Position numbers and translations under genes: made by a program. From assembly GCA_947034885.2 (NCBI GenBank), contig OX344758.2, forward strand, positions 17,325,067 to 17,389,066: a stretch of DNA of 64,000 bases, read 5' to 3'. Under the pieces are notes generated by a model, which was not told the DNA's origin, ran no database searches, and worked only from the letters and a program-made list of their open reading frames with translations. The DNA is from Thuidium tamariscinum. Lineage: Eukaryota; Streptophyta; Bryopsida; Hypnales; Thuidiaceae. Each line of letters starts with the position of its first letter. Position 1 is the stretch's first letter. Below are positions 9,095-64,000 of this stretch, in pieces.

Positions 9095-9585
9095 TAGAGC
9101 GACCTTTTGTGAAATAGTATATTTTTGTTCATTACATAAGTTTTTGTTTTCTCTAATAGTTGACCTTTTGTGAAATTATATATTTTTGTTCATTACATAA
9201 GTTATTGTTTTCTCTAATAGCTGACTTTTTGTGAAATAGTATACTTTTGTTCATTACATAAGTTATTGTTTTCTCTAGAAGCTTACCTTTTGTGAAATAG
9301 TATATTTTTGTTCATTATATAAGTTATTGTTTTCTCTAATAGCTCACCTTTTGTGAAATAGATAGTATATTTTTGTTCATTACGTAACTCATTTTATTTG
9401 GAATCTTTTCTTAAAATAATTAGAAAATAGTTAGTTTTCTCTAATAATATATTTTTGTTCATTATATAAGTTATTGTTTTCTCTAATAGCTCACCTTTTG
9501 TGAAATAGATAGTATATTTTTGTTCATTACGTAACTCATTTTATTTGGAATCTTTTCTTAAAATAATTAGAAAATAGTTAGATGA
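9095..9585. repeat. Tandem repeat, about 61-bp unit, plus a larger duplication
   Basis: About five consecutive units contain CCTTTTGTGAAATAGTATAT, TTTTGTTCATTACATAAGTT and ATTGTTTTCTCTAATAGCT. A longer segment that includes TTATTTGGAATCTTTTCTT and AATTAGAAAATAGTTAG then occurs twice (about 9385-9440 and 9535-9580). The copies differ by a few substitutions. No coding frame survives. Confidence 0.85.
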
Positions 9586-19214: not shown

Positions 19215-22200
19215 AGCAGCGATCCCAGAACAGAAAAGGCGTATTTCGCCAGGAGGCTCTACTAGACCGTATTTTATAGTCTTTATTTCAACCTGTATTT
19301 TTATACGTAGAGGACGTGATATAAATTGCTTTTTGAAATGGAGTACTCTGTATACATTTATTTTTGATTGTAAACAAAAAGTTGCGACATGTCCAAAAAT
19401 TTTGTATGCCATAAAATGCTATACTTTCTTGCATTTGTAGTTGGAAGTGCTCTGTATTCCAAAAAAATTTGGCAAACAAGCGAAAGTGTTGTGCAAGGCC
19501 ATGAAACTGAAACAGAGTCTGCAAAGGGAAATATTTTTATGTATATTGTAAACATTTACATCTCTTGTGAGAATTGTGGAATGATCATCTAAACTACAAG
19601 ACTGTAAACTAAAAGACTATGAAACCTAAGTAACCAAGTATCAAACCTAAGTAAGTCATTCAATATGAAACCTAACTAAGTCATAGACAAGGGAATTGAA
19701 CCCTCTTTGACTGCCCGGTTTGCAGTATCAATGCCCTGCACAAAACAAAACACACAAACAAACAAAACACACAAACAAAACAAAACATAAATCACATTAG
19801 ACAGATTAGTATAAAAGGAGAAGTCGATGATGATGGCCCACTGCAGCTCCACCACAGGTCCATGTTCTGGCGCACTCCCTCCAAAGCTTGGCCGAGTTGG
19901 GGCAGTCTTCAGCCTTAATTCTAGTGAAGGGCAACTAAAGTACTATCGGAGTAATTTGAGCTCCAAGACTAACTGATCTCATGAAAACTAAAGCATCCAA
20001 GAATCATGGATAAAAATGAAGGATACTACTCCCAGCGCTGCTCCTCCTAGTTTAAGCATCCCCTTGCCGGCCAACCTTAACGGCATTTTTCCATGACTGA
20101 ATTGCCTCCTGGTAAGGGAAATTGGCGAGAGAAAAATACTGCTGGCCAAACATGCGCACAACAAGGGGCAAATGCTTCCCTAGTCTATTTCTATGACAAG
20201 ATTTGAGGAATTTCAGAGTTGAGAAACATCGCTCATCCTCAACCGACCCTAGAACCAAACAGCATCCAATTTCAGCAACTTTGAAGTATTCTGAAATCAG
20301 TTTCTGTAAATGCAAGGATAGGTGCAATTTACGCCACAACTTGATGACAGGGTTCACCTGAAAGGGAGGTCCACAAGCCGCCTCAGCATGGGCTTTCATC
20401 GTTACCTTAAATAAGCCAGCTTGATTATCCAGCTTCGACGCTGACAGTAATTCGGGCACAGTGAAAGGGCTCCCTCCAGCCACCGAATGCACCTCATGAA
20501 GGACTCTAGCAGAAGCGTAGAACTTTTTGAGCACCGCCAAATGGTGGGGAAAACTTTCGTCCGCACCTTCCTGGCGCCAATACTGGGGATAAATTATCCC
20601 GAATGCATCCAGCAGGTCCTGTTGAGGGAACCTCCGATCGAGCTCGTCACAAATGCATTGTGCAATCTCTGCAGATTTAAGCAACAAACCATTAGCAATG
20701 AACAAACTGAAAAGCAACCCACAATGGCAGCCTAAAGCCTAGGAATTGGAATTCAACCTTACCTCCGTGGATCCTGTAGTGAGATATTGAACAGCGAGCA
20801 AGAAAGAAGAGCGACCAAGAAAGAAAAGGCAGGCGAATCCAAGAGCCCCAAAACATTGTGGATTCGTTAATTTAATCCTTTCTACACTTAGTGAAGCAAA
20901 ATGACCTAAAATAACTTCCTACAACTCTGCCTCAAAGATTAGAACCCACAGCCAACAAAAAAAATGGGGAGATTAAATTAGACCTCCGCTGCCTTCTTGC
21001 TGCAGCGCTGAATTGATCATGACCGCCAAAAAAAATTGGGAGACAGAAACGAACACCACTGCTAACCGACTGAAGACGCGAAGAAAAAAAAACGGGAAAC
21101 TGAACTCCCCGGTCTGTTCTGAGGACTTCCAAACATGAACTCATAATCAACAAAAAAAAATGGACCCAAGAAATTAACTCATAATAACTAATGATTTGAA
21201 AAACCCAAGTAAAGAAATCGGAAGATTACACCTGACTAGCTGTTACTTCTATTTGCGCCGATCCTGATCATGGAGCACAAACAATCCGATAAGAAAAACA
21301 AAACTGTAAGTAAATAGTGAATCCAAATTGACTCTATTTCTAACCCAAACCTAACTGAAGCAGCATTGTAAAACGAAACTGAAGCAGACCTACTGCCGCA
21401 ACACCAAAGCCCGCCAGGGAGCTTGACACGCAACTGCCAGCTCCACAAAAAGCTTGACGCAAGCAATTCAGAAAAAAACAAAGCAAAAAGGCAAACCAAA
21501 ATTCCAAGGCATCCATGAAACATAAGCAAACAATACAAAACCGAAACTGAAAAGAAAGAAGACCATACCTGAAAACTGGCGTTGAACATTGTCTTGAATT
21601 CTGTTGAATTCTTCCTGGGAAACAAAAATATGATTCCCAGTCTGCTTGTCATGGCAGCGGCCATAGACCTGGGATTTATCAAAGTTGAATAGCAAATGAC
21701 AGATACCTGACTCTCCATTCAGCTTCCGCCAAGCCAGAGGAATATCGGAGCAAGACAGAGAGATAAGGTCGTCATACCGTTCAAAGTCAGCTCTCGAGTA
21801 AGCTGTCGAGCAGTCCAGGAACATACGAGCTAGCTCACCTTGACATAGCTTTACAGCCTCAAGGAAATCGCAAATGAATATATCACGGGATTGTGACAAC
21901 TTCATCAAGCTGTGCACAACATTTACCAAGGGAATGAAGCAGGCTAGAGAGAGGAGCAATTCAACATCGGCCAACAAATCGAAATTGTCGGCAGCTCCAA
22001 CTACCGGCTTGTGACCAGGCTGGGAAGTCATATCAATCCCCATTTTGATTAACAACGTGCGGTACTCCGACATGATTCGAGCAGCAGGGCTCTTCATAGA
22101 TATCCATCTGGTTTCAACGTTTCTTACCATCTTGTTACCTTTAGTTTCCATGAGATCAGCGAGTCTCTGTAGTTCAGCGTGACGGCGGTTGCTGCGGCAG

Positions 22201-24571
22201 AAGTATGCATATACAGACTGAAACAGAGTCTCAAGGCGAGCAATCATTGGAAACTTGGACAAAGTCTCAACAACAAGGTTCAAACGATGACTTACACAGC
22301 TCGCACCAATCAGAAATGGTGCCCATTTGTCACGAATTTGGGTTGTTACACCCGTTTTTGAGCCTTGGAATGTGCTGACTCCATCAGCACCAAAGCAAAC
22401 CAGTTTAGAAGCAATTTGTTCACGAGTTAAGCCTCCCTCACCCAACAAAGCATGCATGATAACATCAGTGAGATGATTAGCACTACCATTTTCAGAAACA
22501 CATGAGAGGTGTAAAAGATGAGGTACCCTCTCCCAATTCTGCATGGCATAAACGTGCACACCTACCCAACATGTGTTGTCTACAGCTGTGACTTCATCAG
22601 CACTTATAGAAATTATACTGGCAGCCTGCACAACACCTTTCAAAGCAGCAAGAACAGAGGCATGCAAGTGTTCACTGATTTCCCAACCTGTGGTTTCAGA
22701 CCAATGCTTTCTGGGAAGATTTTTTACCTTCAGCTGCCTTAGCAGCTGCTGTTGGCGCTCATAATCACACATTGGATGTCCATGAGAAAGAATATGCAAG
22801 AGGGTTGAGAATTGAACCGCTTTCTTTTTGAAGTCACCCTCCAAGCTGCCAAGCAACTGATCGGCCACAGATCCCGCATTCTTCTGCCCAATCCAGAGCT
22901 TGCACAATTTCAAGTGCTGACAGTCACGTTTGATGTAGACATCGCCCTTCTTCAGGTGTGGTTCGGGAACACCATCCTCCAGGCAACTTCGTTTTCCTTC
23001 ATGTTTCTCCAAGTTGTCTAACTTGGGTACCATGACTTTACGCCTCCCTGTCACGCTTGTGCAGCTCCGACAAATGACCCCAACCACATCGCCATCAGAA
23101 TTGAATTCACCCTCAGCCCATGCAAACTTGCAAGCCCATACCTCTTGCCAACGCCGTGTGATTGTGCTTGGAGCAATTTTGTTCTTCTTCCTCCCTGTCG
23201 CTGGCGCTGATTTGCTTCTCTTTGCCGATGCAGGATCCTCATAAATGGTCGGGGACAAGATTGGTGCTTCCGACGGAGGATTTTGGAGAAGCGGCATCGG
23301 CAGTGAATCGAGGTCCACTGGAGTCGGCATCAAGTATTTGCCAACGCCACTGGTATTGCGGTTGGAACCGAAGGTCCGGACCCGGAAATTGTCAGGCAAT
23401 TTCAATCGTGGGGCCATTGTCCAGATTGCACCACCGCAGCCCAGATCGCACCACCGCAGCCCGGATCTCACCTCAGCAGCACCGATCGCACCTCAGCAGC
23501 ACCAATCGAACACTGCAACAAAACAACCCACTCCAAATCCAGAAGCTACACCTGAATACCCCAACCAAACTCCCCAAGTCAAAACCAAGACTACTGAAAT
23601 GCAAAACATGCACAGAAGCAATGCGGGGGTGGAGATCAGCAATTCAGCACCAAAGCCAACAAATTGACAACCGATGAACATCAGCAGCACAATTGACAAC
23701 AAATATCACCAGAAGAAGACGTCGATGCAAGGGTGCGGCACTGCAGCCTCCGTCTTCCAAGACGCCCCCACCAATCGATCACCGCAAGGTGCAAGCTATT
23801 GAACTTAGCAACAAGCACAAACTTCACAGAAAACAAAGAATTCATGAACATCTCAATGCAAAGGTGCAGGTTGTGAAACCCGCACTCATTATATGGAGGC
23901 TTGAACGCCTTGGAGGCCTGGAGTTTGCAAAGTTGTGAACCAACGTTCACCGATACACCACAATCCGCCTGCACTTCCAAATTGCAGGGACTGCAAGATT
24001 GGAGTCTGACCCCCCAGAGTCCTGACTGCATTGTTGCAGGATTCCAGCAACACGGAATTGGCGCAATGTGGCGCACCGCATTCAAAACGCCTCCAAGGAG
24101 GGAAAGGAGTTTGAAAACTCATCATGTCTTCATGAAGGTCGAGGCACTGATCTCGAGAGCGAAGGACGAAGGAACGGCAGGGATCAGCAAGCGCCATTAA
24201 GGCTAACGAGGAGAATCAAGAGGAGCATTAATGCTAACCTCCGACACTGCAAGTGAGGAATCCTGGCTACCTGCCACGAGTTTTGGCAGACCCCACCTAA
24301 ACCCTAGCGTGCTAAATACGCACCGGTCGATGGAGCCGACCTGCTCCCAGATCAACGGCGTTGGTGAATCCACGCTACTGGATGAAAAGGTGTTCGCCTG
24401 GCCTCGCTATTCGTCAGTTGGATGACGAGTCAGATTTGCGACATGCTGCAGCGCAGCTCAAAGATTTGGCTCAAAATCTGAATCTCAAGGACATTTTTCC
24501 TTTGTACATTTAGCAGATGTCCGGATTTGGTAGAAAAATGGCGCAATTTAGCCAGTTTAGGGATCGCTGCT
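19215..24571 (-). mobile_element. Candidate hAT-superfamily transposon carrying the transposase gene
   Basis: The region around the two-exon transposase gene is bounded by inverted matches: AGCAGCGATCCC at 19215-19226 and its complement at 24560-24571, with weaker similarity on both sides (GATTA / TAATC inside; CTCAC...AGTACT about 50 bp outside on both flanks). The true termini may lie at about 19170 and 24630. No 8-bp target duplication could be identified, so the limits are tentative. Left of the gene, 19227-20051 holds an A/C-rich low-complexity stretch (19741-19795). Right of it, 23418-24571 holds short CCGCAGCCC/CAGCAGCAC repeats and no convincing gene. Confidence 0.5.
20052..23417 (-). 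CDS. hAT-family transposase, two exons
   Basis: Two exons, 23417-21569 and 20668-20052, join at GT-AG sites (TTTTCAG|GTATGG and CTGCAG|AG) to give 821 aa without a stop. The ATG at 23417 (MAPRLK) is preferred; the frame is also open upstream. Residues 66-85 are basic. A C2HC finger of BED/TTF type lies at C116, C119, H139 and C145. The catalytic core shows SADE (D274), FGADG (D345) and CVSHRLN (C374, H377). The C-terminal hAT dimerisation region is about 745-790, with SVEDERCFSTLKFLK. The family cuts and rejoins DNA as a dimer. Because the reading frame is intact and GC-richer than its surroundings, the copy is either recently active or domesticated. A third small exon cannot be excluded. Confidence 0.82.
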
Positions 24572-25053: not shown

Positions 25054-25385
25054 GGAGTGGTGGCGTTCTTTTGGGTTTTGGGTTTTGGGTTTTGTCGGAG
25101 AAAGTGTCTGATAGTTCTTGAAGAGCAAGCGAGGATCTTCGATATGACCTTCATTTGCATTCTTTGTTTTACTTTGTGATTTGGTGAGAAATTTTGGAGT
25201 GGTGGCGTTCTTTCGAGTTTCGAGTTTCGGGTTTTGGGTTTTGGGTTTTGGGTTTTGCTATCTGTAGTTCTTGAAGAGCAAGGGAGGAGCTCCATTCTGT
25301 CCTTCTCTTGCATTCTCTGTTTCTCTTTGTCATTTGGTGAGTATTTTCGAGGTGTCCAAGTGTTGGCGGTTCTTTTGCGTTTTCA
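25054..25385 (+). repeat. Tandemly duplicated leader of the ISN1 gene with TTTTGGG runs
   Basis: A unit of about 142-160 bp begins GGAGTGGTGGCGTTCTT at 25054 and 25196, with a diverged start GTGTTGGCGGTTCTT near 25360. Within each unit follow TTTTGGG repeats (25069-25095 and 25228-25257), AGTTCTTGAAGAGCAAG, then CATTCT...TTTGTxATTTGGTGAG. The last unit runs to 6 bp before the ATG. GGTGAGTAT at about 25337 and TTTTCAG ending at 25385 could mark a short leader intron. The TTTTGGG runs look like plant telomere repeat but differ from TTTAGGG. Confidence 0.75.
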
Positions 25386-25391
25386 GTGGTC

Positions 25392-27080
25392 ATGGCGCCG
25401 CCATCAGCAGTGGGCGGAGTTGGGAGTTTGCTGCTGCCACCGCCGCCGTGCGTTTTTTCGCTGCGAGGCAAGATGACGCATTTCGCAAATTACCCCAATT
25501 TCGCGGCTGCTGGACACACCTGGTCGACTGGCGGGGGTTTCTCTCGTGGTTTAGATGCACACCACCAAAACTTGCAATTCGTCTCTGTCGGCGTGTCGCC
25601 CAAGGTCTCAAGGTTTAGTGGCAATGCCATTGTTGCTGCGGATGAAATTCCCGGAGTGGAGCTTAGTGAAGCGTCCACGCGTCGCGAACGCGCCGAATTT
25701 AGGTCAAACAGAGCTTCAGTGATTGCGCCGAACACCGACATTGTTGAAGAAAGGGGCAAGTCTTCTTCCCAGGATGTGGAAGAAGCAGCGCGAAGTGGAA
25801 ATTGGTCCGGAAACAGGACAATGAATGGCGCCGATGGGGACGAGGGGCTGGTGAGCTTGCCGGACGGCCAAGGCGGCATGCGCTGGAACATGCTTTTGAG
25901 CAAAGAAGCTCTCGAGGACGCGCACCTCCACCGTGCTTCCAGCGTCACCGACGCGCATGTCCTCCGCCGAAAGGGTCGTCTCAAGGAACAAGATGGCTTA
26001 ATCGAGTTCATCATCTCAATGCACTCGACCCACTCCCCCTTCCAGACCATGGAGAAGTTAGAGCGCTGGGTGCGTGAGCATCTGGAGGATCCGATGCGCT
26101 CCACCTTGAGCCGCCTCATCCCCACTCTCGGCCGCTTCTACACGCCGCTCCCGCTCGTGCGCGCTTTCCACGAGTACGACGAGTTCGCGTCTCTTTCCCG
26201 ACGCCGCTTCGTCCCTCCGAATTTCGCTGAAATTCGACATGTCCTCAACATCGCGCAAGTGCACGCGATTGCTGAGAAGCTTGCGCTCATCACTTTTGAT
26301 GCCGATGGGACGATCTACGCCGACGGGCACCACATTCAAGGAGACAACAAAATGATCGGGCACATCATCAAGCTCATGGAGCGAGGGGTGCACGTCGCCA
26401 TCGTCACGGCCGCGGGCTATCCGGGAAACGCTGCAAAATTTGAATCGCGCTTGGCGGGGTTACTTGAAGCTTTTCAGAAGCTTCGGCTTCCGACTACCAT
26501 CACTTCACTTTTCCATGTTGTTGGCGGCGAGTGCAACTATCTTTTGAAGGTGCATGAGCATTACAAACTGGAATTTGTTCCCGAGGAGCTTTGGATGTCG
26601 CCGGATATGCTGCAATGGTCGGATTCTGACGTGAATGCGCTGCTCGCGGACGCGGAATGCGCGCTTCGCGCCGGCGCGGTTCGACTGCGCATCCCGATTG
26701 AGATTGTGCGCAAACCGCGAGCGGTAGGCGCGGTGCCGTGTGAGCCGACGATTTATGAGGTTTTGGAGGAGCTCGCGTTGACGGTGCAAGTGCAGCTCAT
26801 CGGCTCGCGCCTGCCGTTTTGCGCTTTCAATGGGGGGAATGATGTGTTCGTTGATGTGGGCAACAAGAGTGTGGGATTGCGAGCGCTCATGAGATTTTTG
26901 AAGAAGAAGCCGTGTGAGACGTTGCATGTCGGGGATCGGTTCACTGTCAGTGGGAATGATATGGCCACGAGGTCGCAGTGCTCGATTCTGTGGGTGGCGA
27001 ATCCCGAGGAGACGGCCTTCTTCACGCGCTTGTTGTTGACGGATATTCGGTTAGCGAGACTCCACCCGTACTTGGAGTAG
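25392..27080 (+). CDS. ISN1: IMP-specific 5'-nucleotidase (ISN1 family)
   Basis: ISN1 enzymes hydrolyse IMP to inosine and phosphate in purine turnover. The single open frame gives 562 aa from the ATG at 25392 (MAPPSAVGG). The catalytic HAD-type motif is FDADGTIYADG with D303 and D305. Later signatures are VTAAGYPGNAAKFESRL, CNYLLKV, FNGGNDVFVDVGNKS (about 478) and HVGDRFTVSGNDMA (about 511), which carries a late acidic residue typical of metal binding, ending in WVANPEET. The first ~170 residues are a low-complexity extension rich in A, P, G, S and R. It is absent from the catalytic core and could be a plastid targeting peptide (inference). The gene is intronless and clearly GC-richer than its neighbours. 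No break is seen. The family is well known in fungi and apicomplexans. Confidence 0.88.
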   Translation: MAPPSAVGGVGSLLLPPPPCVFSLRGKMTHFANYPNFAAAGHTWSTGGGFSRGLDAHHQNLQFVSVGVSPKVSRFSGNAIVAADEIPGVELSEASTRRERAEFRSNRASVIAPNTDIVEERGKSSSQDVEEAARSGNWSGNRTMNGADGDEGLVSLPDGQGGMRWNMLLSKEALEDAHLHRASSVTDAHVLRRKGRLKEQDGLIEFIISMHSTHSPFQTMEKLERWVREHLEDPMRSTLSRLIPTLGRFYTPLPLVRAFHEYDEFASLSRRRFVPPNFAEIRHVLNIAQVHAIAEKLALITFDADGTIYADGHHIQGDNKMIGHIIKLMERGVHVAIVTAAGYPGNAAKFESRLAGLLEAFQKLRLPTTITSLFHVVGGECNYLLKVHEHYKLEFVPEELWMSPDMLQWSDSDVNALLADAECALRAGAVRLRIPIEIVRKPRAVGAVPCEPTIYEVLEELALTVQVQLIGSRLPFCAFNGGNDVFVDVGNKSVGLRALMRFLKKKPCETLHVGDRFTVSGNDMATRSQCSILWVANPEETAFFTRLLLTDIRLARLHPYLE

Positions 27081-44760: not shown

Positions 44761-44984
44761 CTACTTCAAGCGTTATTCTTTTCCTACCTAAGTGGTTTAA
44801 TTTCTTCTACTTCATGTGTTGGTGCCCTTCTCTTCTTATTCTAATTGTATGTACTTGGTTGTTCCTCTTGACCGTGACGTATTAATTCATTGATCCCACT
44901 TTACTTAAGTATTTTACCGTTCTACTCCATTGCTACGTATTATGCTTTCCTACTTCTACTTTATGTATTTGAGGCTTCTACTTC

Positions 44985-45240
44985 TATTCTATGTATTATA
45001 TTTTTTAATCTACCTCTACGTCTTGTATTATTCTACTCTACATCTATGTCTTGTACTATTCTACTCTACATCTATGTCTTGTATTATTCTACTCTACTTC
45101 TATGTCTTGTATTATTCTATTCTACTTCTATGTCTTGTATTATTCTATTCTACTTCTATGTCTTGTATTCTTTTAGTCTACTTCTATGTCTTACATTCTT
45201 CTATCCTACTTCTACGTCTTGAATTCTTTAATTTACCTCT
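44985..45240. repeat. 28-bp minisatellite, about nine units
   Basis: The unit is TCTATGTCTTGTATTATTCT followed by ACTCTACT, repeating every 28 bp (for example 45071 and 45099), with increasing divergence at both ends. Because 28 is not a multiple of three, all plus frames read as overlapping hydrophobic repeats and stay open for 110-154 codons. This is an artefact and not evidence of a gene. Confidence 0.9.
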
Positions 45241-45639
45241 ATGTATTTTGTTCCCCTATTTTACCATCCGCTATGTGTTTGTTCATTCAACCTACTTCTA
45301 CAAATTTGCTCCTTTATTCTACTTCTATGTGTTTGAGTTGCTTATTGGATTTGTGCCCTTGCCCCTCTTTAACTCACTAATTGCCATTCACTAATTGTGA
45401 TTAAATCACTAGCCCTTTGTCCCTAACTATCCCCTAATTGTATAATCAATTTAAACAAAAAAAGAGTTAGAGTTAGGAACCTACCTCTAGTGCGTGTGTG
45501 ACATCCTTGGGGTCCACGTCATCCCCACCACTCCTCCATTGTTGATTTAATTGATGTTTAATCTCTAAACTACTCCCTAAACTCTAAAAGTTTGCAACCG
45601 GCCAGCCAACAAAGCATTAGATCAGTCCTACAATATGTG

Positions 45640-48399: not shown

Positions 48400-48700
48400 A
48401 AAATAGGATAAAAAGTAGAAATGGAAAAATAGGATAGAAAGTAGAAAGAAAAAAAGAGGATAGAATTTAGAAGGAAAAAAGTAGATAGGAAATTAGTCAA
48501 AGGGAGAGACAATTAGCGATAAATTATAGAATAGAAATTAGGATAGTTGAAACAAGGAAAAAGCCAACTATAGAATAGTAATTGAGATAGTTAGAATAAG
48601 GAGAAAGCCAACCATAGAATAGTAATTGAGATAGTTGGAATCAGGGGAAAGCCAGTTAAAGAATAGTAATTGGGATAGTTGGAACAAAGGATAGACAATT
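48400..48700. repeat. Purine-rich tandem repeats
   Basis: First come about three units of roughly 29 bp (AAAATAGGATAGAAAGTAGA-type, 48405-48490). They are followed by about four units of roughly 52 bp (TAGAATAGTAATTGAGATAG then TTGGAATAAGGAGAAAGCCA, 48520-48690). Non-coding. Confidence 0.75.
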
Positions 48701-52780: not shown

Positions 52781-53259
52781 AGTGGCAATTATCAATGATT
52801 CAAGGTTTATATTCACAATCTTCAATTCCTAGCTCAAGTGATGCCAACTTTTTCAATTCATAAAGGAAGGCTCTCTAATGCCTCACATCTCTTAAAGACT
52901 AGAATCTTCAACAACCTTGAGATTTTCAAAGGAAGCATGCCCCGCTCTTAAAGCCAATTTATTCTAAATGTGTCATCTTAGTTAAGGTAGGTGGAATCTC
53001 TTTTAGTTGTTCACAACCATTGAAATTCAATCTAATAAGACATGTCAATGATTCAAAGTCCAAATCTTCAATCTTTAGTTGTTTGCATTCATTCTAAGAC
53101 AGATTCTCTAGTGATGCCAACTTTTCCAATCCACGGGGCATGCTCTCCAATGCCTCACATCCTTCAAAGTCTAGAATCTTCAAGGCTTTGAGATTTTCAA
53201 ATGATGCATGCTCCACGCCCCCACCTTCAACTTCTCACAACCCTCAAAGCCAAGTCACT
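52780..53259 (-). pseudogene. Decayed 3' tail of the LRR array
   Basis: Minus-strand sequence still resembles about one and a half of the 288-bp LRR units (for example TTGAAGGTGG, CTCACATCCTTCAAAGTCTA on the plus strand, GCAAATGCC-type LRR motifs). It carries stops and length changes. At the junction, the expected spacing of the AACATG landmark (53271) is shifted to 53263 by an 8-bp insertion (CGTCCACA on the minus strand). The next codons read TGT TTA GAG TGA, with TGA where sister units have TGG. Confidence 0.75.
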
Positions 53260-55860
53260 CTAAACATGTGGACGTGTCATATTAGCAATGGTTGGTGAAA
53301 TCTCTTCTAATTGTTCACATCCCTTGAAATCCAATGTTTTAAGTGATGTCAATGATTCAAGGCTCAAATCTTCAATCTTCAGCTCCTTGCAATCGTTCAA
53401 ATAGAGCTCTTCAAGTAATGCCAACTTTCCCATTCCATGGGGCATGCTCTCTAATGTTTCACATCCTCCAAAGTCTAAAATCTTCAAGGCCTTGAGATTT
53501 TCAAATGATACATGCTCCACCTTCAACTTCTTACAACTTTGAAAGCAAAGCCACTTTAAACATGTCATGTTGGCTATGGATGGTGGAATCTCTTCTAGTT
53601 GTTCACATCCCTTGAAATTCAATGTTGTAAGTGATGTCAATGATTCAAGGTCTGAATTCACAATCTTCAATTCCTTGCAATCTTTCAAATAGAGCTCTTC
53701 TAGTGATGCCAACTTTTTCAATCCATGGGGCATGCTCTCCAATGCCTCACATCCTTCAAAGTTTAGAACCTTTAAGGCCTTGAGATTTTCAAATGATATA
53801 TGCTCCACTTTCAACTTCTTACAACTATGAAAGCTAAGCCACTCTAAACAGGTCATGTTCGCTATGGCTGGTGGAATCTCTTCTAGTTGTTCACAACCCT
53901 TGAAAGTCAATTTAGTAAGTGATGTCAATGATTCAAGGCTCAAATCCTCAATCTTCAGCTCCTTGCAATCAGTCAAGTAGAGCTCCTCTAGTGATGTCAA
54001 CTTTCCCATTCCTTGGGGCATGCTCTCCAATGCCTCACATCCTTCAAAGTCTAAAATCTTCAAGGCCTTGAGATTTTCAAATGATATATGCTCCACCTTC
54101 AACTTCTTACAACTTTGAAAGCTAAGCGATTGTAAACATGTCATGTTGGCTATGGCTGGTGGAATCTCTTCTAGTTGTTCACATCCCTTCAAAACCAATG
54201 TTTTAAGTGATGTCAATGATTCAAGGTTCAAATCTTCAATCTTCAGCTCCTTGCAATCAGTCAAGTAGAGCTTCTCTAGCGATGCCAACTTTCCCATTCC
54301 TTGGGGCATACTCTCCAATGCCTCACATCCTACAAAGTCTAAAATCTTCAAGGCCTTGAGATTTTCAAATGATATATGCTCGACCTTCAACTTCTTACAA
54401 CTTTGAAAGCTAAGCGATTGTAAACATGTCATATTGGCTATTGCTGGTGGAATTTCTTCTAGTTGTTCACATCCCTTAAAATTCAACATAATGAGTGATG
54501 TCAATGATTCAAGGTCCGAATTTCCAATCTTCAATTCCTTGCAATCAATCAAGTAGAGCTTCTCTAGTGATGCCAACTTTCCCATTCCTTGGGGCATGCT
54601 CTCCAATGCCTCACATCCTCCAAAGGCCAAAATCTTCAAGGCCTTGAGATTTTCAAATGATATATGCTCCACTTTCAACTTCTTACAACTATGAAAGCTA
54701 AGCCACTCTAAACAGGTCATGTTCGCTATGGCTGGTGGAATCTCTTCTAGTTGTTCACAACCCTTGAAAGTCAATTTAGTAAGTGATGTCAATGATTCAA
54801 GGCTCAAATCCTCAATCTTCAGCTCCTTGCAATCAGTCAAGTAGAGCTCCTCTAGTGATGTCAACTTTCCCATTCCTTGGGGCAAGCTCTCCAATGCCTC
54901 ACATCCTCCAAAGTCTAAAATCTTCAAGGCCTTGAGATTTGCGAATGATATATGCTCCACCTTCAACTTCTTACAACTTCGAAAGCTAAGCAATTGTAAA
55001 CATGTCATATTGGCTATGGCTAGTGGAATCTCTTCCAGTTGTTCACATCTCTTGAAATCCAATGTTTTAAGTGATGTCAATGATTCAAGGTTCAAATCTT
55101 CAATCTTCAATTTCTTGCAATCATTCAAATAGAGCTTCTCTAGTGAAGCCAACTTTCCCATTCCTTCGGGCATACTCTCCAATGCCTCACATCCTCCAAA
55201 GTCTAAAATCTTCAAGGCCTTGAGATTTTCACATGATATATGCTCCACCTTCAACTTCTTACAACTTTGAAAGCTAAGCCACTCTAAACAGGTCATATTC
55301 GCTATAGCTGGTGGAATCTCTTCTAGTTGTTCACATCCCTTAAAAGTCAATTTAGTAAGTGATGTCAATGATTCAAGGCTCAAATCTTCAATCTTTAGCT
55401 CCTTGCAATCAATCAAGTAGAGCTTCTCTAGTGATGCCAACTTTCCCATTCCTTGGGGCATGCTCTCCAATGTTTCACATCCTCCAAAGTCTAAAATCTT
55501 CAAGGCCTTGAGATTTTCAAATGATACTTGCCTAGTCCTCAATTTCTTACAACTTTGAAAGCTAAGCGATTGTAAACATGTCATGTTGGCTATTGCTGGT
55601 GGAATCTCTTCTAGTTGTTCACATCCCTTAAAATTCAACATAATGAGTGATGTCAATGATTCAAGGTCCGAATTTCCAATCTTCAATTCCTTGCAATCAA
55701 TCAAGTAGAGCTTCTCTAGTGATGCCAACTTTCCCATTCCTTGGGGCATGCTCTCCAATGCCTCACATCCTCCAAAGGCCAAAATCTTCAAGGCCTTGAG
55801 ATTTGCAAATGATATATGCTCCACCTTCAATTTCTTACAACTTTGAAAGCTAAGCGATTG
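53260..55860 (-). pseudogene. In-frame LRR continuation beyond the premature stop (866 codons)
   Basis: Directly after the TGA at 55863-55861 the same frame stays open for 866 codons to 53260. It encodes nine further 96-residue LRR units of the same type as upstream (LESLTSL, GCEQLEEIPPAIANMTC). The first codons after the stop read QSLSFQSCKK, exactly the expected continuation. The region is therefore coding sequence cut off by one substitution. It ends where an 8-bp insertion shifts the frame into an early stop. If the TGA is read through or is an assembly error, the LRR exon would have about 2,830 codons. Confidence 0.8.
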
Positions 55861-58800
55861 TCAACATGTCATGTTGGCTATGGCTGGTGGAATCTCTTCT
55901 AGTTGTTCACATCCCTTAAAATTCAACATAATGAGTGATGTCAATGATTCAAGGTCGAAATTTCCAATCTTCAATTCCTTGCAATCAATCAAGTAGAGCT
56001 TCTCTAGTGATACCAACTTTCCCATTCCTTGGGGCATGCTCTCCAATGCTTCACATCCTCCAAAGTTTAGAATCTTCAAGGCCTTGAGATTTTCAAATGA
56101 TATATGCTCCACCTTCAACTTCTTACAACTTTGAAAGCTAAGCCACTCTAAACATGTCATGTTAGCTGTGGCTGGTGGAATCGTTTCTAGTTGTTCACAT
56201 CCCTTCAAAACCAATGTTTTAAGTGATGTCAATGATTCAAGGTTCAAATCTTCAATCTTCAACTCCTTACAATCATTCAAGTAGAGCTCTTCTAGTAATG
56301 CCAACTTTCCCATTCCCTGGGGCATACTTTCCAATGCCTCACATCCTTCAAAGTTTAGAACCTTTAAGGCCTTGAGATTTTCAAATGATATATGCTCCAC
56401 TTTCAACTTCTTACAACTATGAAAGCTAAGCCACTCTAAACAGGTCATGTTCGCTATGGCTGGTGGAATCTCTTCTAGTTGTTCACAACCCTTGAAAGTC
56501 AATTTAGTAAGTGATGTCAATGATTCAAGGCTCAAATTCTCAATCTTCAGCTCCTTGCAATCAGTCAAGTAGAGCTCCTCTAGTGATGTCAACTTTCCCA
56601 TTCCTTGGGGCATGCTCTCCAATGCCTCACATCCTTCAAAGTCTAAAATCTTCAAGGCCTTGAGATTTTCAAATGATATATGCTCCACCTTCAACTTCTT
56701 ACAACTTTGAAAGCTAAGCGATTGTAAACATGTCATGTTGGCTATGGCTGGTGGAATCTCTTCTAGTTGTTCACATCCCTTCAAAACCAATGTTTTAAGT
56801 GATGTCAATGATTCAAGGTTCAAATCTTCAATCTTCAGCTCCTTACAATCATTCAAGTAGAGCTTCTCTAGCGATGCCAACTTTCCCATTCCTTGGGGCA
56901 TACTCTCCAATGCCTCACATCCTACAAAGTCTAAAATCTTCAAGGCCTTGAGATTTTCAAATGATATATGCTCGACCTTCAACTTCTTACAACTTTGAAA
57001 GCTAAGCGATTGTAAACATGTCATATTGGCTATTGCTGGTGGAATTTCTTCTAGTTGTTCACATCCCTTAAAATTCAACATAATGAGTGATGTCAATGAT
57101 TCAAGGTCGAAATTTCCAATCTTCAATTCCTTGCAATCAATCAAGTAGAGCTTCTCTAGTGATGCCAACTTTCCCATTCCTTGGGGCATGCTCTCCAATG
57201 CCTCACATCCTCCAAAGGCCAAAATCTTCAAGGCCTTGAGATTTGCAAATGATATATGCTCCACCTTCAACTTCTTACAACTTTGAAAGCTAAGCGATTG
57301 TAAACATGTCATGTTGGCTATGGCTGGTGGAATCTCTTCTAGTTGTTCACATCCCTTAAAATTCAACATAATGAGTGATGTCAATGATTCAAGGTCGAAA
57401 TTTCCAATCTTCAATTCCTTGCAATCAGTCAAGTAGAGCTCTTCTAGTAATGTCAACTTTCCCATTCCTTGGGGCATGCTCTCCAATGCCTCACATCCTT
57501 CAAAGTCTAAAATCTTCAAGGCCTTGAGATTTTCAAATGATATATGCTCCACCTTCAACTTCTTACAACTTTGAAAGCTAAGCCACTCTAAACATGTCAT
57601 GTTAGCTGTGGCTGGTGGAATCGTTTCTAGTTGTTCACATCCCTTCAAAACCAATGTTTTAAGTGATGTCAATGATTCAAGGTTCAAATCTTCAATCTTC
57701 AACTCCTTACAATCATTCAAGTAGAGCTCTTCTAGTAATGCCAACTTTCCCATTCCCTGGGGCATACTTTCCAATGCCTCACATCCTTCAAAGTTTAGAA
57801 CCTTTAAGGCCTTGAGATTTTCAAATGATATATGCTCCACTTTCAACTTCTTACAACTATGAAAGCTAAGCCACTCTAAACAGGTCATGTTCGCTATGGC
57901 TGGTGGAATCTCTTCTAGTTGTTCACAACCCTTGAAAGTCAATTTAGTAAGTGATGTCAATGATTCAAGGCTCAAATCCTCAATCTTCAGCTCCTTGCAA
58001 TCAGTCAAGTAGAGCTCCTCTAGTGATGTCAACTTTCCCATTCCTTGGGGCATGCTCTCCAATGCCTCACATCCTTCAAAGTCTAAAATCTTCAAGGCCT
58101 TGAGATTTTCAAATGATATATGCTCCACCTTCAACTTCTTACAACTTTGAAAGCTAAGCGATTGTAAACATGTCATGTTGGCTATTGCTGGTGGAATCTC
58201 TTCTAGTTGTTCACATCCCTTCAAAACCAATGTTTTGAGTGATGTCAATGATTCAAGGCTCAAATCCTCAATCTTCAGCTCCTTGCAATCAGTCAAGTAG
58301 AGCTTCTCTAGCGATGCCAACTTTCCCATTCCTTGGGGCATACTCTCCAATGCCTCACATCCTACAAAGTCTAAAATCTTCAAGGCCTTGAGATTTTCAA
58401 ATGATATATGCTCGACCTTCAACTTCTTACAACTTTGAAAGCTAAGCGATTGTAAACATGTCATATTGGCTATTGCTGGTGGAATCTCTTCTAGTTGTTC
58501 ACATCCCTTAAAATTCAACATAATGAGTGATGTCAATGATTCAAGGTCCGAATTTCCAATCTTCAATTCCTTGCAATCAATCAAGTAGAGCTTCTCTAGT
58601 GATGCCAACTTTCCCATTCCTTGGGGCATGCTCTCCAATGCCTCACATCCTCCAAAGGCCAAAATCTTCAAGGCCTTGAGATTTGCAAATGATATATGCT
58701 CTACCTTCAACTTCTTACAACTTTGAAAGCTAAGCGATTGTAAACATGTCATGTTGGCTATTGCTGGTGGAATCTCTTCTAGTTGTTCACATCCCTTAAA

Positions 58801-61047
58801 ATTCAACATAATGAGTGATGTCAATGATTCAAGGTCGAAATTTCCAATCCTCAGCTCCTTGCAATCAGTCAAGTAGAGCTTCTCTAGTGATGCCAACTTT
58901 CCCATTCCTTGGGGCAAGCTCTCCAATGCCTCACATCCTCCAAAGTCCAAAATCTTCAAGGCCTTGAGATTTGCGAATGATATATGCTCCACCTTCAACT
59001 TCTTACAACTTCGAAAGCTAAGCAATTGTAAACAGGTCATGTTGGCTATGGCTGGTGGAATCTCTTCTAGTTGTTCACAACCCTTGAAAGTCAATTTAGT
59101 AAGTGATGTCAATGATTCAAGGCTCAAATCCTCAATCTTCAGCTCCTTGCAATCAGTCAAGTAGAGCTCCTCTAGTGATGTCAACTTTCCCATTCCTTGG
59201 GGCATGCTCTCCAATGCCTCACATCCTCCAAAGTCTAAAATCTTCAAGGCCTTGAGATTTTCAAATGATACATGCTCCACCTTCAACTTCTTACAACTTT
59301 GAAAGCAAAGCCACTTTAAACATGTCATGTTGGCTATGGATGGTGGAATCTCTTCTAGTTGTTCACATCCCTTGAAATTCAATGTTGTAAGTGATGTCAA
59401 TGATTCAAGGTCTGAATTCACAATCTTCAATTCCTTGCAATCTTTCAAATAGAGCTCTTCTAGTGATGCCAACTTTTTCAATCCATGGGGCATGCTCTCC
59501 AATGCCTCACATCCTTCAAAGTTTAGAACCTTTAAGGCCTTGAGATTTTCAAATGATATATGCTCCACTTTCAACTTCTTACAACTATGAAAGCTAAGCC
59601 ACTCTAAACAGGTCATGTTCGCTATGGCTGGTGGAATCTCTTCTAGTTGTTCACAACCCTTGAAAGTCAATTTAGTAAGTGATGTCAATGATTCAAGGCT
59701 CAAATCCTCAATCTTCAGCTCCTTGCAATCAGTCAAGTAGAGCTCCTCTAGTGATGTCAACTTTCCCATTCCTTGGGGCATGCTCTCCAATGCCTCACAT
59801 CCTTCAAAGTCTAAAATCTTCAAGGCCTTGAGATTTTCAAATGATATATGCTCCACCTTCAACTTCTTACAACTTTGAAAGCTAAGCGATTGTAAACATG
59901 TCATGTTGGCTATGGCTGGTGGAATCTCTTCTAGTTGTTCACATCCCTTCAAAACCAATGTTTTAAGTGATGTCAATGATTCAAGGTTCAAATCTTCAAT
60001 CTTCAGCTCCTTGCAATCAGTCAAGTAGAGCTTCTCTAGCGATGCCAACTTTCCCATTCCTTGGGGCATACTCTCCAATGCCTCACATCCTACAAAGTCT
60101 AAAATCTTCAAGGCCTTGAGATTTTCAAATGATATATGCTCGACCTTCAACTTCTTACAACTTTGAAAGCTAAGCGATTGTAAACATGTCATGTTGGCTA
60201 TGGCTGGTGGAATTTCTTCTAGTTGTTCACATCCCTTAAAATTCAACATAATGAGTGATGTCAATGATTCAAGGTCCGAATTTCCAATCTTCAATTCCTT
60301 GCAATCAATCAAGTAGAGCTTCTCTAGTGATGCCAACTTTCCCATTCCTTGGGGCATGCTCTCCAATGCCTCACATCCTCCAAAGGCCAAAATCTTCAAG
60401 GCCTTGAGATTTGCAAATGATATATGCTCCACCTTCAACTTCTTACAACTTTGAAAGCTAAGCGATTGTAAACATGTCATGTTGGCTATTGCTGGTGGAA
60501 TCTCTTCTAGTTGTTCACATCCCTTAAAATTCAACATAATGAGTGATGTCAATGATTCAAGGTCGAAATTTCCAATCTTCAATTCCTTGCAATCAGTCAA
60601 GGAGAGCTTCTCTAGTGATGCCAACTTTCCCATTCCTTGGGGCATGCTCTCCAATGCTTCACATCCTCCAAAGTTTAGAATCTTCAAGGCCTTGAGATTT
60701 TCAAATGATATATGCTCCACCTTCAACTTCTTACAACTTTGAAAGCTAAGCCTTCTTAAACATGTCATGTTGGCTATGGCTAGTGGAATCTCTTGTAGTT
60801 GTTCACATCCCTTGAAAGTCAATTTAGTAAGTGATGTCAATGATTCAAGGTCCGAATTCTCAATCTTTAGTTGCTTGCAATCAGTCAAATAGAGCTTCTC
60901 TAGTGATGCCAACTTTGACATTCCATTGGGCAATTTCTCTAACATTTTACATCCCCTAAAGTTTAGAATCTTTAAAGCTTTGAGATTTTGAAATGATGCA
61001 TGCCCTACCCTTAGCTTCTTGCAACCTTGAAAGACAAGTTGTTGCAA
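53271..61047 (-). repeat. LRR-coding tandem array, 27 intervals of exactly 288 bp
   Basis: The landmark AACATG/AAATATG (codons for ANMTC) recurs at 61047, 60759, 60471, ... 55863, 55575, ... 53559, and would fall at 53271 but for the terminal 8-bp insertion. That is 27 steps of 288 bp with no net indel. Each unit encodes 96 residues made of four 24-residue LRRs: KLKVEHISFENLKALKILDF, GCEALESMPQGMGKLASLEK, LYLIDCKELKIGNSDLESLT and LIMLNFKGCEQLEEIPPAIA, plus short linkers. Long stretches are identical between units, whereas the first units (about 60760-61250) are more diverged and probably the oldest. Confidence 0.95.
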
Positions 61048-64000
61048 ATATGGCATATTGGCAATTGGAATCCTTTCTAATTGTTCACACCTAGTAAAAT
61101 GTAATGTAGTAAGTGATGTCAATGATTCAAGCTGCAAAGTCTCAATTTTTAGCTGCTTACAATTTGTGCAGTTCAATTTCTTCAAAAATACCAACTTTTC
61201 TAAACCAAGGGGCATATACTCAAGGGATTCACATCCTTCAAAGTCTAGAATCTCCAAAACCTTGAGACTTTCAAATGTTGTATTAATTGATGTCAACTTT
61301 GTACATTTTTGGATGTATAATGATGACAATGATGGCATGTTTTGAAATCCACTTGATATATTTGTAAGGTTATAACATTTTTGTAAGCATAATGTCTTCA
61401 AGGTCATATATTCAATTGTTGTGTTTGGAAAAGTCTTCATCAATTGAAAATTGCATAATTCTAATACTGTGAGTTGTTGAAGTTCACGGAGTTGCAACAG
61501 GCTTGTGAGTTGGTTGGTAGTATTGGAAAAGACATCCCCATCATCAATGTTGTTTGTTTTGTATGAAATTCGAAGGAATTTCAATCGATGTGTTAGTTGA
61601 ATCAATTTTGCAACATTGCTCAAATCATTGTATACTTCAATATTCAAAAGCAATAAGTTGGGGAGGTCAACCTTCTCAATTGGATTGAAATCTTTGTCTA
61701 TATTCACTCCAGTAATGCTAATTCCTCGAGCATTTTGAACCTCCTGAATCACAAAGTTTCATTACTAATTGGTTATAAGTTGATCATCAATGAAACTAAA
61801 AATATCTCAATGAATGTATTCCTCAAGATTTAGATCTAAACCAATATTTTTGTATTATAATTATTAAAAAAATGGAACAAATTCTCAATTGCATAACATA
61901 CCTCTTTATTTGATAATTCTAATGATTGAAAAGTTTGCTTCCATTTTCGTCTACCTCCAAATCCTCTTCTTGAGATTCTCCGCCCCATGTCACGTATTGA
62001 ATCATGCATGCTTACAAAACTAGCATCATTTATTTTGATAAGAGAATTGTCTCTTAGGCTTGCAATTATGGTTTTTGTATTATCCTCCAAATAATTCACT
62101 ATGGTATCTTCTCGAATGTCTTCCAACCATACATCCTTACAAAAGAAGCATGCTATATCCAAAAACACTTCTTTCTCTTCAATATTAAGCATATCAAAAC
62201 TAATCTCTAATCTTCTCCCCACATCTTCGGGGGCATCATATTCTCCTCTTTTCAATCTTTGTAAAGCTCGCTCCCAAACACGAAGGCGCTTTTGTCCATT
62301 TAAACAAGAGCCCATCACTTCTAGGCTTAATGGATGGCCACCACAAGCTTCAACTATCTTCTTGATGAGTTGATTCATATGTGGTATCATTGAACCTTCA
62401 TTCTTGAAGGCATGTTTGGAGAATATATCTATAGAATGGTGATAATCCAACATTGGAACTTCAAATTTGCTATCTTCTTTGATCATGCCTCTCAAGGTCT
62501 TCCAATCACGACTAGTAACAATCAATTTGCTACCTTCCAAACTAAACATTCCTGCTTCTAAAAACATATCCAAGTGATCTTCTTCGGTGACATCATCCAA
62601 GATGAAGAGTACTTTTTTTTGTTTAAGCATTGAAGTCAATATGAGTTTTCCCTGAGCAAGATCATTGGCTTCTTGTTTTTGTCCCAATTCCTTCAAAATC
62701 CGATTCATTTCTATTAAATGATCACTCTTAAGATCACACATAATTGTAGTCCACTTAGATGAATCATTGATTGGCAATGCCTTATTCAAATAATCCTTAA
62801 AAGCCTTCACTAATGTTGTTTTCCCAATACCACTTACTCCAATAACACCAACCATGGATTTATTCCAAAGAAACTTTTCTAAGGTCTTGGTTTGTAAATC
62901 AAGGCCACGACACTTGAAAAGTATTGATGAATCAATGATACCCTATGCACAATAGAGTTTTCACAATCAGCAAATTGAAAAACTACCACAATCAATAACA
63001 TTTAAGGATTTACTTCAAAAAAATTGAAAATTGGATAATCAGTCATTCCTCTAGTATGAGCTCTAATTCATAATTTAGAGTATACAATTAAGCTTAGAGC
63101 ACTTTCAAAATTCAAATTGTACATACCTCGATACATTCGTCACTTGTTTTTGGAACATAAAATCTCCAAATATTATCAATGATAAATGTCCATATATACA
63201 ACCACCATTGTCCAATTGTTGCAATAGAAGATGAAAATTGCTTAAACTTATTGAAATGTGAAAAAGTTTGAACTTCTTTCATCAATGTCTTATTAGTACA
63301 TCGAGTCTTCAAGTCCTTCTTCTTTATCTCCATCAAACTTGTGTGTATTTTTGCAAACGAAGGTCTTCCATTTGGATCCATAGCCAAACAATCTTCAATT
63401 AACGACCGCAATTCTCGACAAAGAGAGATGCCCATTAAGGCCACTTTTTGTCTTCTAGCAATTTCAAAAGGACTAGATCCAAAATCTTCAAATTGTTTTT
63501 GGAGTAATATATCACAACAAACTAATCCAAAACTAAACACATCAGGTTTTAAAGGATCAAACATCATATTGGCCTTCAATGCTTCAGGAGCAATATATAT
63601 AGGAGTCCCACGAATACCACTTGGCATATCAAGAATATTGTCCTTCACTTCATCCTTAGAAATGCCAAAATCAATTAGTTTGGCACAAACATAACCATCT
63701 TCTTTTAACTCCGGACATTGCATTATATTCACCACAACATTAGCTGGCTTCAAGTCACGATGTGCAACTTTCATGTCATGAAGGTATAATACTCCACTAG
63801 CAATTTGAAGCATTAAATCCAACTTGGCAGGGAATGTAATCTTTTGATTTAGATCTTCAAAAAGCATTTTATGAAGACTCATTTCGCCTTTTTCCATTCC
63901 AAATTGAAGGTGATTCTTTCCAAACAAATCCTTAAAAGAACCACAATAGAATAACTTGATGATGTTGGGATGATCCAATTGTGCCATAATCCGCACTTCT
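55861..64000 (-). CDS. Protein kinase-NB-ARC-LRR (PNL) immune-receptor-like gene, partial
   Basis: Predicted intracellular immune receptor. Exons: 64000-63127 (kinase, 5' end off the window), 62942-61902 (NB-ARC), 61743-55861 (LRR), with GT-AG introns, both phase 0. Kinase: starts in helix C (EVRIMAQLDHPNIIKLFYCG); catalytic loop HRDLKPANVVV, DFG in LIDFGISK, GTPIYIAPEAL, DVFSFG. The lysine and glycine loop lie outside. NB-ARC: P-loop GVSGIGKTT, kinase-2 VLFILDDVTEED, RNBS-B GSKLIVTSRD, GLPL-type GGHPLSLEVMG, RNBS-D FLDIACFF, MHD in SMHDSIRDMG. The LDDV-T and FLDIACFF forms resemble TIR-class NB domains. LRR: about 230 diverged residues, then the 96-residue repeats. Length here is about 2,597 residues to the TGA at 55863-55861, which interrupts a repeat (MTC-stop for MTCL). 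It may encode a truncated receptor or be a recent pseudogene. Confidence 0.88.
61744..61901 (-). other. PNL intron 2 (NB-ARC to LRR)
   Basis: Donor GAG|GTATGT at 61902/61901 and acceptor GATTCAG|GAG at 61744/61743. 158 bp, phase 0. The frame would stay open into the intron for 21 codons before a stop. Confidence 0.85.
62943..63126 (-). other. PNL intron 1 (kinase to NB-ARC)
   Basis: Donor GAG|GTATGT at 63127/63126 and acceptor GCATAG|GGTATC at 62943/62942. 184 bp, phase 0. The exon after it begins GIIDSSILFKCRGLDLQTKT, the pre-P-loop segment usual before NB-ARC domains (the GLDLQ...L pattern), which supports the junction. Confidence 0.82.

Follow-up and report, generated by a model that had tools for sequence, protein, structure and literature searches.

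A probable coding satellite of leucine-rich repeats in a kinase NLR gene of the moss Thuidium tamariscinum

The minus strand of a 64,000-nucleotide stretch of the genome of the moss Thuidium tamariscinum (contig OX344758.2, positions 17,325,067 to 17,389,066; hereafter the window) carries a gene with an exon of leucine-rich repeats (LRRs) in which a 288-bp unit is repeated in tandem. We consider it likely that the exon encodes the sensor of an immune receptor built of kinase, NB-ARC and LRR domains, a nucleotide-binding LRR receptor (NLR) of the PK-NBS-LRR (PNL) class, and that its LRR domain is a coding satellite; this judgment concerns identity and concerted evolution. A first-pass annotation of the window had described the repeats and supposed a coding satellite maintained by unequal crossing-over or gene conversion, a proposal borne out by the higher-order blocks, the homogenised middle and diverged edges, the locus-specific consensus sequences and a copy number that ranges from ~3 to 49 across the 13 loci reported below. 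Its points of omission were the NLR identity of the gene, a TGA codon in unit 20 and the frequency of such arrays among NLRs. All data come from the assembled sequence of one genome, and copy numbers and the TGA were read from the assembly alone.

Tandem Repeats Finder (TRF) reported a single array at 52990-61163, with a period of 288 bp, 28.3 copies, 89% matches and 0% indels. A unit scan resolved 29 units separated by 26 steps of 288 bp, one of 282 bp, shortened by a 6-bp deletion in the second unit, at the 5' edge, and a step of 304 bp at the decayed 3' end. The exact 288-bp steps without net indel, and the four 24-residue LRRs per step, that the first-pass annotation had described were recovered in units 3 to 28 (Table 1), and these units form the basis of the identity matrix, the unit comparison, the diversity ranking and the shuffle test, with units 1, 2 and 29 onward left out. 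Mean pairwise identity was 91.2% at the nucleotide level and 86.5% at the amino-acid level, the lowest amino-acid pair reaching 75% (26 of 29 units). The identical stretches of several hundred bases were likewise found, with a list of six runs of >= 300 bp that are shared without mismatch, the longest of 974 bp.

The order of the units is itself structured. Blocks of several units (A B C D x) recur as a higher-order structure, many of them five and six units apart. Close unit pairs that were colinear numbered 11, whereas 5,000 shuffles of the unit order gave 0.96 on average and never more than 7, and chance periodicity was set aside on this result. Because the unit consensus matches itself at 52% of positions at a lag of 144, the 288-bp unit was probably born as a doubled pair. 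The four-gamete test failed for 709 of 2,080 site pairs in the window array, which points to reassortment within units, and for 201 of 465 in the array of a second locus, C5, described below. The 26 units of the window display 16 distinct four-face combinations, drawn from 5, 6, 6 and 7 faces at the four LRRs.

The exons upstream of the array place the gene among the NLRs. With its flank included (L009), the kinase exon is a 547-codon open reading frame with a Pkinase match at residues 233-471 (3.8e-32), and its sequence holds the letters of what we take to be the HRD, DFG and APE motifs. The kinase glycine-rich loop looks degenerate, since the Pfam kinase match starts only at profile position 28 (L009). 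In a search of the PDB with the NB-ARC exon, the top match was Roq1 (7e-31), and 7crb, annotated as an NAD+ hydrolase, was also among the best; the letters of what are presumably the P-loop and MHD motifs are present in this exon. Four traits of the PNL class were found, namely an N-terminal protein kinase domain, an NB-ARC domain closer to that of TIR-type (TNL) than of coiled-coil-type (CNL) NLRs by its best Pfam and PDB matches, and phase-0 introns at both the PK/NBS and the NBS/LRR borders, with exon ends falling at codon borders. By these four traits the gene is a predicted kinase-NB-ARC-LRR receptor of the PNL class, and the reading as a surface receptor was set aside once the NB-ARC domain had been found. 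Residues 1-230 of the kinase exon frame (L009), upstream of the kinase domain, are common to L011, a second locus of the family; no Pfam family scored above its cut-off there, and the best 60 of 76 PDB matches to the kinase exon (E <= 1e-12) all start at residue 207 or later. A four-helix identity for these 230 residues, of the Cbl-N or MLKL-like kind, drew no support from these matches and was set aside.

Table 1. Features of the kinase-NB-ARC-LRR gene in the window (window positions; 5' and 3' refer to the gene).
Feature	Position	Strand	Evidence or remark
Kinase exon, 3' part (HRD, DFG, APE motifs)	63127..64000	minus	Pfam Pkinase 1.5e-30; exon runs past window end
Intron 1, GT..AG, phase 0, kinase/NB-ARC border	62943..63126	minus	inferred from sequence
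NB-ARC and Roq1-like winged-helix exon, free of internal stops	61902..62942	minus	Pfam NB-ARC 3.5e-30, WHD_ROQ1 8.6e-13
Intron 2, GT..AG, phase 0, NB-ARC/LRR border	61744..61901	minus	inferred from sequence
LRR exon: diverged 5' LRRs, then 288-bp array; one internal stop, frame end 53262-53260	53260..61743	minus	
Two diverged 5' edge units	60841..61410	minus	identity 0.61 and 0.66 to own consensus
Units 3 to 28: 26 register-perfect 288-bp units, 96 aa each (4 x 24-residue LRR)	53353..60840	minus	
974-bp exact block, copy 1	59219..60192	minus	
974-bp exact block, copy 2, 20 units downstream, past the TGA	53459..54432	minus	
In-frame TGA in unit 20, private TTA>TGA; the 25 remaining units of 3-28 have TTA	55861..55863	minus	
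Decaying, out-of-frame 3' end of array	52990..53259	minus	TRF edge, sequence; last unit identity 0.61

The TGA in unit 20 would cut the LRR exon of this copy to 1,960 codons with ~17 full units, a number that still exceeds the arrays at 11 of the 12 other loci. The repeats past the TGA hold the frame down to its end (Table 1), after which the gene decays out of frame. The 974-bp exact pair spans the TGA, so that units on both sides of it have been homogenised together.

The window array has close relatives elsewhere in the genome (363 Mb, 19 contigs), which was searched at the DNA level with the array and then at the protein level with the NB-ARC domain. The protein search returned at least 113 matches, and the 14 at >= 74% identity represent 13 loci, the window included. 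By TRF, the larger arrays comprise 49.3 copies in C5, 28.3 in the window, 15.1 in L013, 13.6 in L011, 13.4 in L018, 13.1 in L012 and 12.8 in L014, and the smaller ones 11.7 in L010, 10.3 in L019, 8.3 in L016, 7.3 in L017, 2.8 in L015 and 2.8 in L020 (period 272). The array therefore occurs at further loci of the genome, and its dismissal as a one-exon curiosity was itself discarded. In C5, the LRR exon is open over 4,926 codons (4,921 from the inferred acceptor), and its array holds 50 detectable units, with 49 of 49 steps exactly 288 bp, exact copies of up to 1,151 bp, and unit identities of 95.7% (nucleotide) and 92.4% (amino acid) over 49 of the 50 units. Among the eight loci with no stop or frameshift in NB-ARC, the LRR frame is open to the end of the array in C5, L011 and L018 and open except for roughly the last 265-515 bp of the array in L014 and L013; the frame of L019 stops after about two units, the stops of L010 precede its array, and the window copy has its TGA. 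In L016 the NB-ARC domain is broken, yet the frame is open to the array end. The last repeat of L016, L018 and L019 follows after a step of 260 rather than 288 bp, as if the three loci had a 3' edge deletion in common.

A homogenised middle with diverged edges is the classical mark of unequal exchange, and the relationships of the units between loci show this pattern. Among all 203 units of the 13 loci, the nearest relative lay in the same locus for none of the 13 first units, for 167 of the 177 interior units and for 6 of the 13 last units. In a maximum-likelihood tree of the units, the 13 first units group as a single, exclusive clade, and in C5, L010, L011 and L014 the interior units make up clades into which no foreign unit falls. 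At 12 of the 13 loci the array has a consensus of its own; L020, the remaining locus, has too few units. First units that are orthologous across loci and interior units that are homogenised within each array are the signature of concerted evolution.

Homogenised LRRs extend beyond this family. Of 99 NB-ARC matches outside it, 15 loci were picked as controls by ranking spacing and clade, a non-random choice, and 11 of these 15 carry LRR arrays visible to TRF. The period is 72 bp in nine of them (one also with 144 bp), 141 bp in L025 and 72, 144 and 432 bp in L036. Adjacent LRRs are 58-85% identical in the 11 loci with arrays, compared with 30-41% in three of the four array-free loci; no LRR motif was seen in the fourth, L033. 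Six LRR genes of the LRRNT_2 type in this genome, picked for their long open frames among 105 matches, showed no TRF array of >= 200 bp within 2.5 kb in any of the six cases, and their adjacent LRRs (2 to 12 motifs each) are 40-47% identical. In this non-random sample the homogenised state looks tied to NLRs, and since arrays are frequent among the NLRs of this genome, the window exon is no isolated oddity there. The first-pass annotation had contrasted the exon with plant LRR exons in general: its satellite behaviour stands, and its oddity does not, given the 11 of 15 other NB-ARC loci with arrays and the published cases of rice Xa1/Xo1 and flax L/M (PMC7004385). Two of the loci with 72-bp LRR arrays, L031 (C10:12815600-12819100) and L022 (C6:18285000-18291000), also have a second frame that stays open over hundreds of codons across those repeats, be it an overlapping frame or a side effect of the array.

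Variation among the units is concentrated at a few positions of the LRR. Amino-acid diversity between units was highest at register positions 6, 8, 10 and 5, all within a set (5, 6, 8, 10, 11) that is presumably exposed. Selection counts and mean identities exclude units with less than 78% identity to their own consensus; the selection table covers the family without L020, and the event counts leave out both L015 and L020. The ratio of nonsynonymous to synonymous diversity in the window was 0.76 for the exposed set and 0.22 elsewhere, and in C5 3.76 and 0.26, the exposed figure of C5 deriving from 17 nonsynonymous and 2 synonymous events. In the window, the diversity of the exposed set ranked 32 among 42,504; over 12 loci its rank was 6 when their mean was taken and 167 or better in 10 of them individually. 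When events were pooled over seven of the 13 loci, chosen as divergent, those outside the exposed set numbered 292 nonsynonymous and 270 synonymous, a strong nonsynonymous deficit against the neutral fraction of 0.73 (p = 1.6e-25). Purifying selection acts on the positions outside the exposed set, and the set of exposed positions as a whole shows no detectable net constraint.

Sensor domains reshaped by intragenic unequal exchange are the best reading of these data. Unequal exchange between sister chromatids or homologues, together with gene conversion, would keep cutting and pasting units, and recombination in register would add, remove or overwrite them in multiples of 288 bp, so that frame and fold would outlast each exchange. 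The concave binding face of the LRR domain would then change both its length and its pattern on a preserved fold, its variety coming from the exposed residues. The kinase NLR may sense through this concave face, and its kinase, to which the literature gives a signalling role, may signal upon binding of a pathogen molecule.

Several observations weigh against this reading. The copy in the window is interrupted by its in-frame TGA, and the NB-ARC domain carries a stop or frameshift in five of the 13 loci (L012, L015, L016, L017 and L020). In the tree, the smallest clade that contains the interior units of the window holds 25 foreign units, which we put down to the diverged second edge unit, included among the interior units in the tree as run. 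L012 and L013, and likewise L015-L019, are intermixed, as would be expected of recent duplicates. The presumed exposed set was assigned by the xxLxLxx strand rule; one of its members, position 11, is nearly invariant, and the enrichment at the set is missing in L010 and L015 (ranks 5,174 and 5,328). The pooled events at the exposed positions, 202 nonsynonymous and 65 synonymous, agree with the neutral expectation of 0.761 nonsynonymous (p = 0.60). Because these events fall at the neutral proportion, diversifying selection is not demonstrated, and positive selection as a proven fact was set aside. The comparison of nonsynonymous and synonymous change per position that the first-pass annotation had called for thus gave a peak of diversity at exposed positions, with event counts there at the neutral proportion.

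The neutral event counts at exposed positions, the TGA and the several broken paralogs would all fit a neutral coding satellite, in which recombination drives changes in size, LRRs past the first 15-20 hardly matter, the window copy is a decaying pseudogene and the array has no adaptive role; the continued homogenisation of units past the stop with those ahead of it would fit as well. We nevertheless regard this as unlikely, since purifying selection acts outside the exposed set across the arrays, the NB-ARC and kinase exons of the window copy are open, C5 is open through 49 units, and no such arrays are seen in the six LRRNT_2-type genes. The array might instead act as a multivalent scaffold, in which near-identical units offer many equal sites, to which a repeated ligand could bind or through which the receptor could self-assemble, and in which homogeneity is itself selected. 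The very high identity of the C5 units and a product that exceeds in length the range published for LRR domains of plant NLRs (PMC9585916) would suit such a scaffold, which is nonetheless improbable, as the exposed positions are the most variable ones, the opposite of equal sites. Short reads are known to misassemble genes of this kind (PMC7004385; PMC12222747), and collapse or expansion of the repeats in the assembly would be a further explanation; it is very improbable here, with arrays lying on contigs of 24-48 Mb where seen, 26 in-register units that carry unit-specific variants, and a separate array consensus at each of 12 loci out of 13. These explanations and the reading we prefer are not mutually exclusive, and the neutral satellite and the scaffold concern the use of the array.

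Near-identical LRR repeats have precedents in plants. Rice Xa1, the Xo1 candidate and Nb-xo1_5 contain five, four and three full near-identical LRR repeats of 93 amino acids (279 bp), and among more than 1,000 NLR sequences from two rice genomes such repeats were reported at the Xa1/Xo1 locus only (PMC7004385). The Thuidium genes resemble these zfBED-NLRs in being plant NLRs with near-identical tandem LRR units whose number varies between genes, but the rice genes have a zfBED and coiled-coil N-terminus, 93-aa units and a single locus, whereas here we find a kinase, 96-aa units, up to ~49 of them, and several NB-ARC clades; no BED family was detected in the Pfam scans, the N-terminus being a kinase. 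The flax L and M genes carry few copies, the number of which is altered by unequal exchange. These rust-resistance genes, the other named case of near-identical LRR repeats, share that feature with the moss array but are TIR-class NLRs with ~150-aa units (PMC7004385). LRR domains of 1,000-3,400 aa with more than 30 LRRs have been described in plant NLRs, in a section on this range that makes no mention of near-identity among repeats (PMC9585916); more than 30 LRRs are common to both, and the C5 LRR exon, at ~4,900 codons, exceeds that range.

The domain order and phase-0 introns of the window gene are those of the PNL genes of Physcomitrella, a class of PK-NBS-LRR genes that its authors found only in mosses and in which each of the two domain borders holds a phase-0 intron (PMC3352924). 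Kinase NLRs occur beyond mosses in wheat Tsn1, and in Nicotiana benthamiana the N-terminal kinase of Tsn1 gave a reliable response and that of a Physcomitrella NLR a modest and variable one (PMC11218826). Near-identical arrays are mentioned neither in the results and first half of the discussion of PMC3352924 nor in one results section of PMC3991678, a study with 8,594 LRR-like versus 475 NBS-like sequences, and our literature searches found no report of homogenised LRR arrays in bryophytes.

A parallel lies in fungi, where NLRs with high internal conservation (HET-D and HET-E with WD40 among them) combine WD40, ANK or TPR repeats, and no LRRs, with concerted evolution and hypervariable sites within the repeats (PMC4986451; PMC12222747). 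High internal conservation is defined there by repeats more than 85% identical over at least 100 aa (PMC4986451), and the window array, with its mean pairwise 86.5% amino-acid identity, lies above this value, as a mean and thus by another measure than the program of that study. Concerted evolution is likewise apparent in the moss family, in which interior units mostly have their nearest relative in their own locus and first units never do. Hypervariable register positions occur in the moss units too, with event counts at the neutral proportion. The repeats are LRRs in a plant-type NLR rather than WD40, ANK or TPR repeats in a fungal one. Functional het-d and het-e alleles usually have 11 repeats (PMC12222747). 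Allelic recognition has been shown for the fungal system and not for the window locus, which appears to work like an NLR with high internal conservation outside the fungal group.

Elsewhere in the window, a 579-codon open frame on the plus strand (25341-27077) matches ISN1, the IMP-specific 5'-nucleotidase (1.6e-95). The ISN1 family is known mainly from fungi and Plasmodium, and a match within a plant genome may deserve attention. A 674-codon open frame on the minus strand (21471-23492) had no Pfam match at E <= 0.001, and further tandem repeats lie at 9101-9581 (61/147 bp), 44954-45335 (28 bp) and 48525-48687 (44 bp).

What we take as new is the scale of the arrays (28 and 49 units), the LRR fold at such scale, the kinase N-terminus and the genome-wide breadth, near-identical LRR repeats being present here throughout the kinase-NLR family and at 11 of the 15 NB-ARC loci sampled outside it. 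Plant NLR diversification is thought to proceed mostly through gene duplication, allelic change and domain integration. We tentatively raise the possibility, itself rather doubtful, that the NLR repertoire of this moss diversifies mainly within genes: most NLR clades would carry an LRR coding satellite (72, 141, 144 or 288 bp), sensors would reach up to ~200 LRRs, turnover would be faster than gene duplication, and receptor surfaces would be shuffled in the germ line. Short-read assemblies may misreport such genes. If the reading of reshaped sensor domains is true, the folding and oligomerisation of an NLR with 80 to 200 LRRs would pose a structural puzzle, the parallel to fungal NLRs with high internal conservation would extend to a different repeat fold, and such plants would be a place to watch the recombination of receptor surfaces. 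Arrays of this kind suggest a way in which a plant could rebuild its pathogen sensors without new genes.

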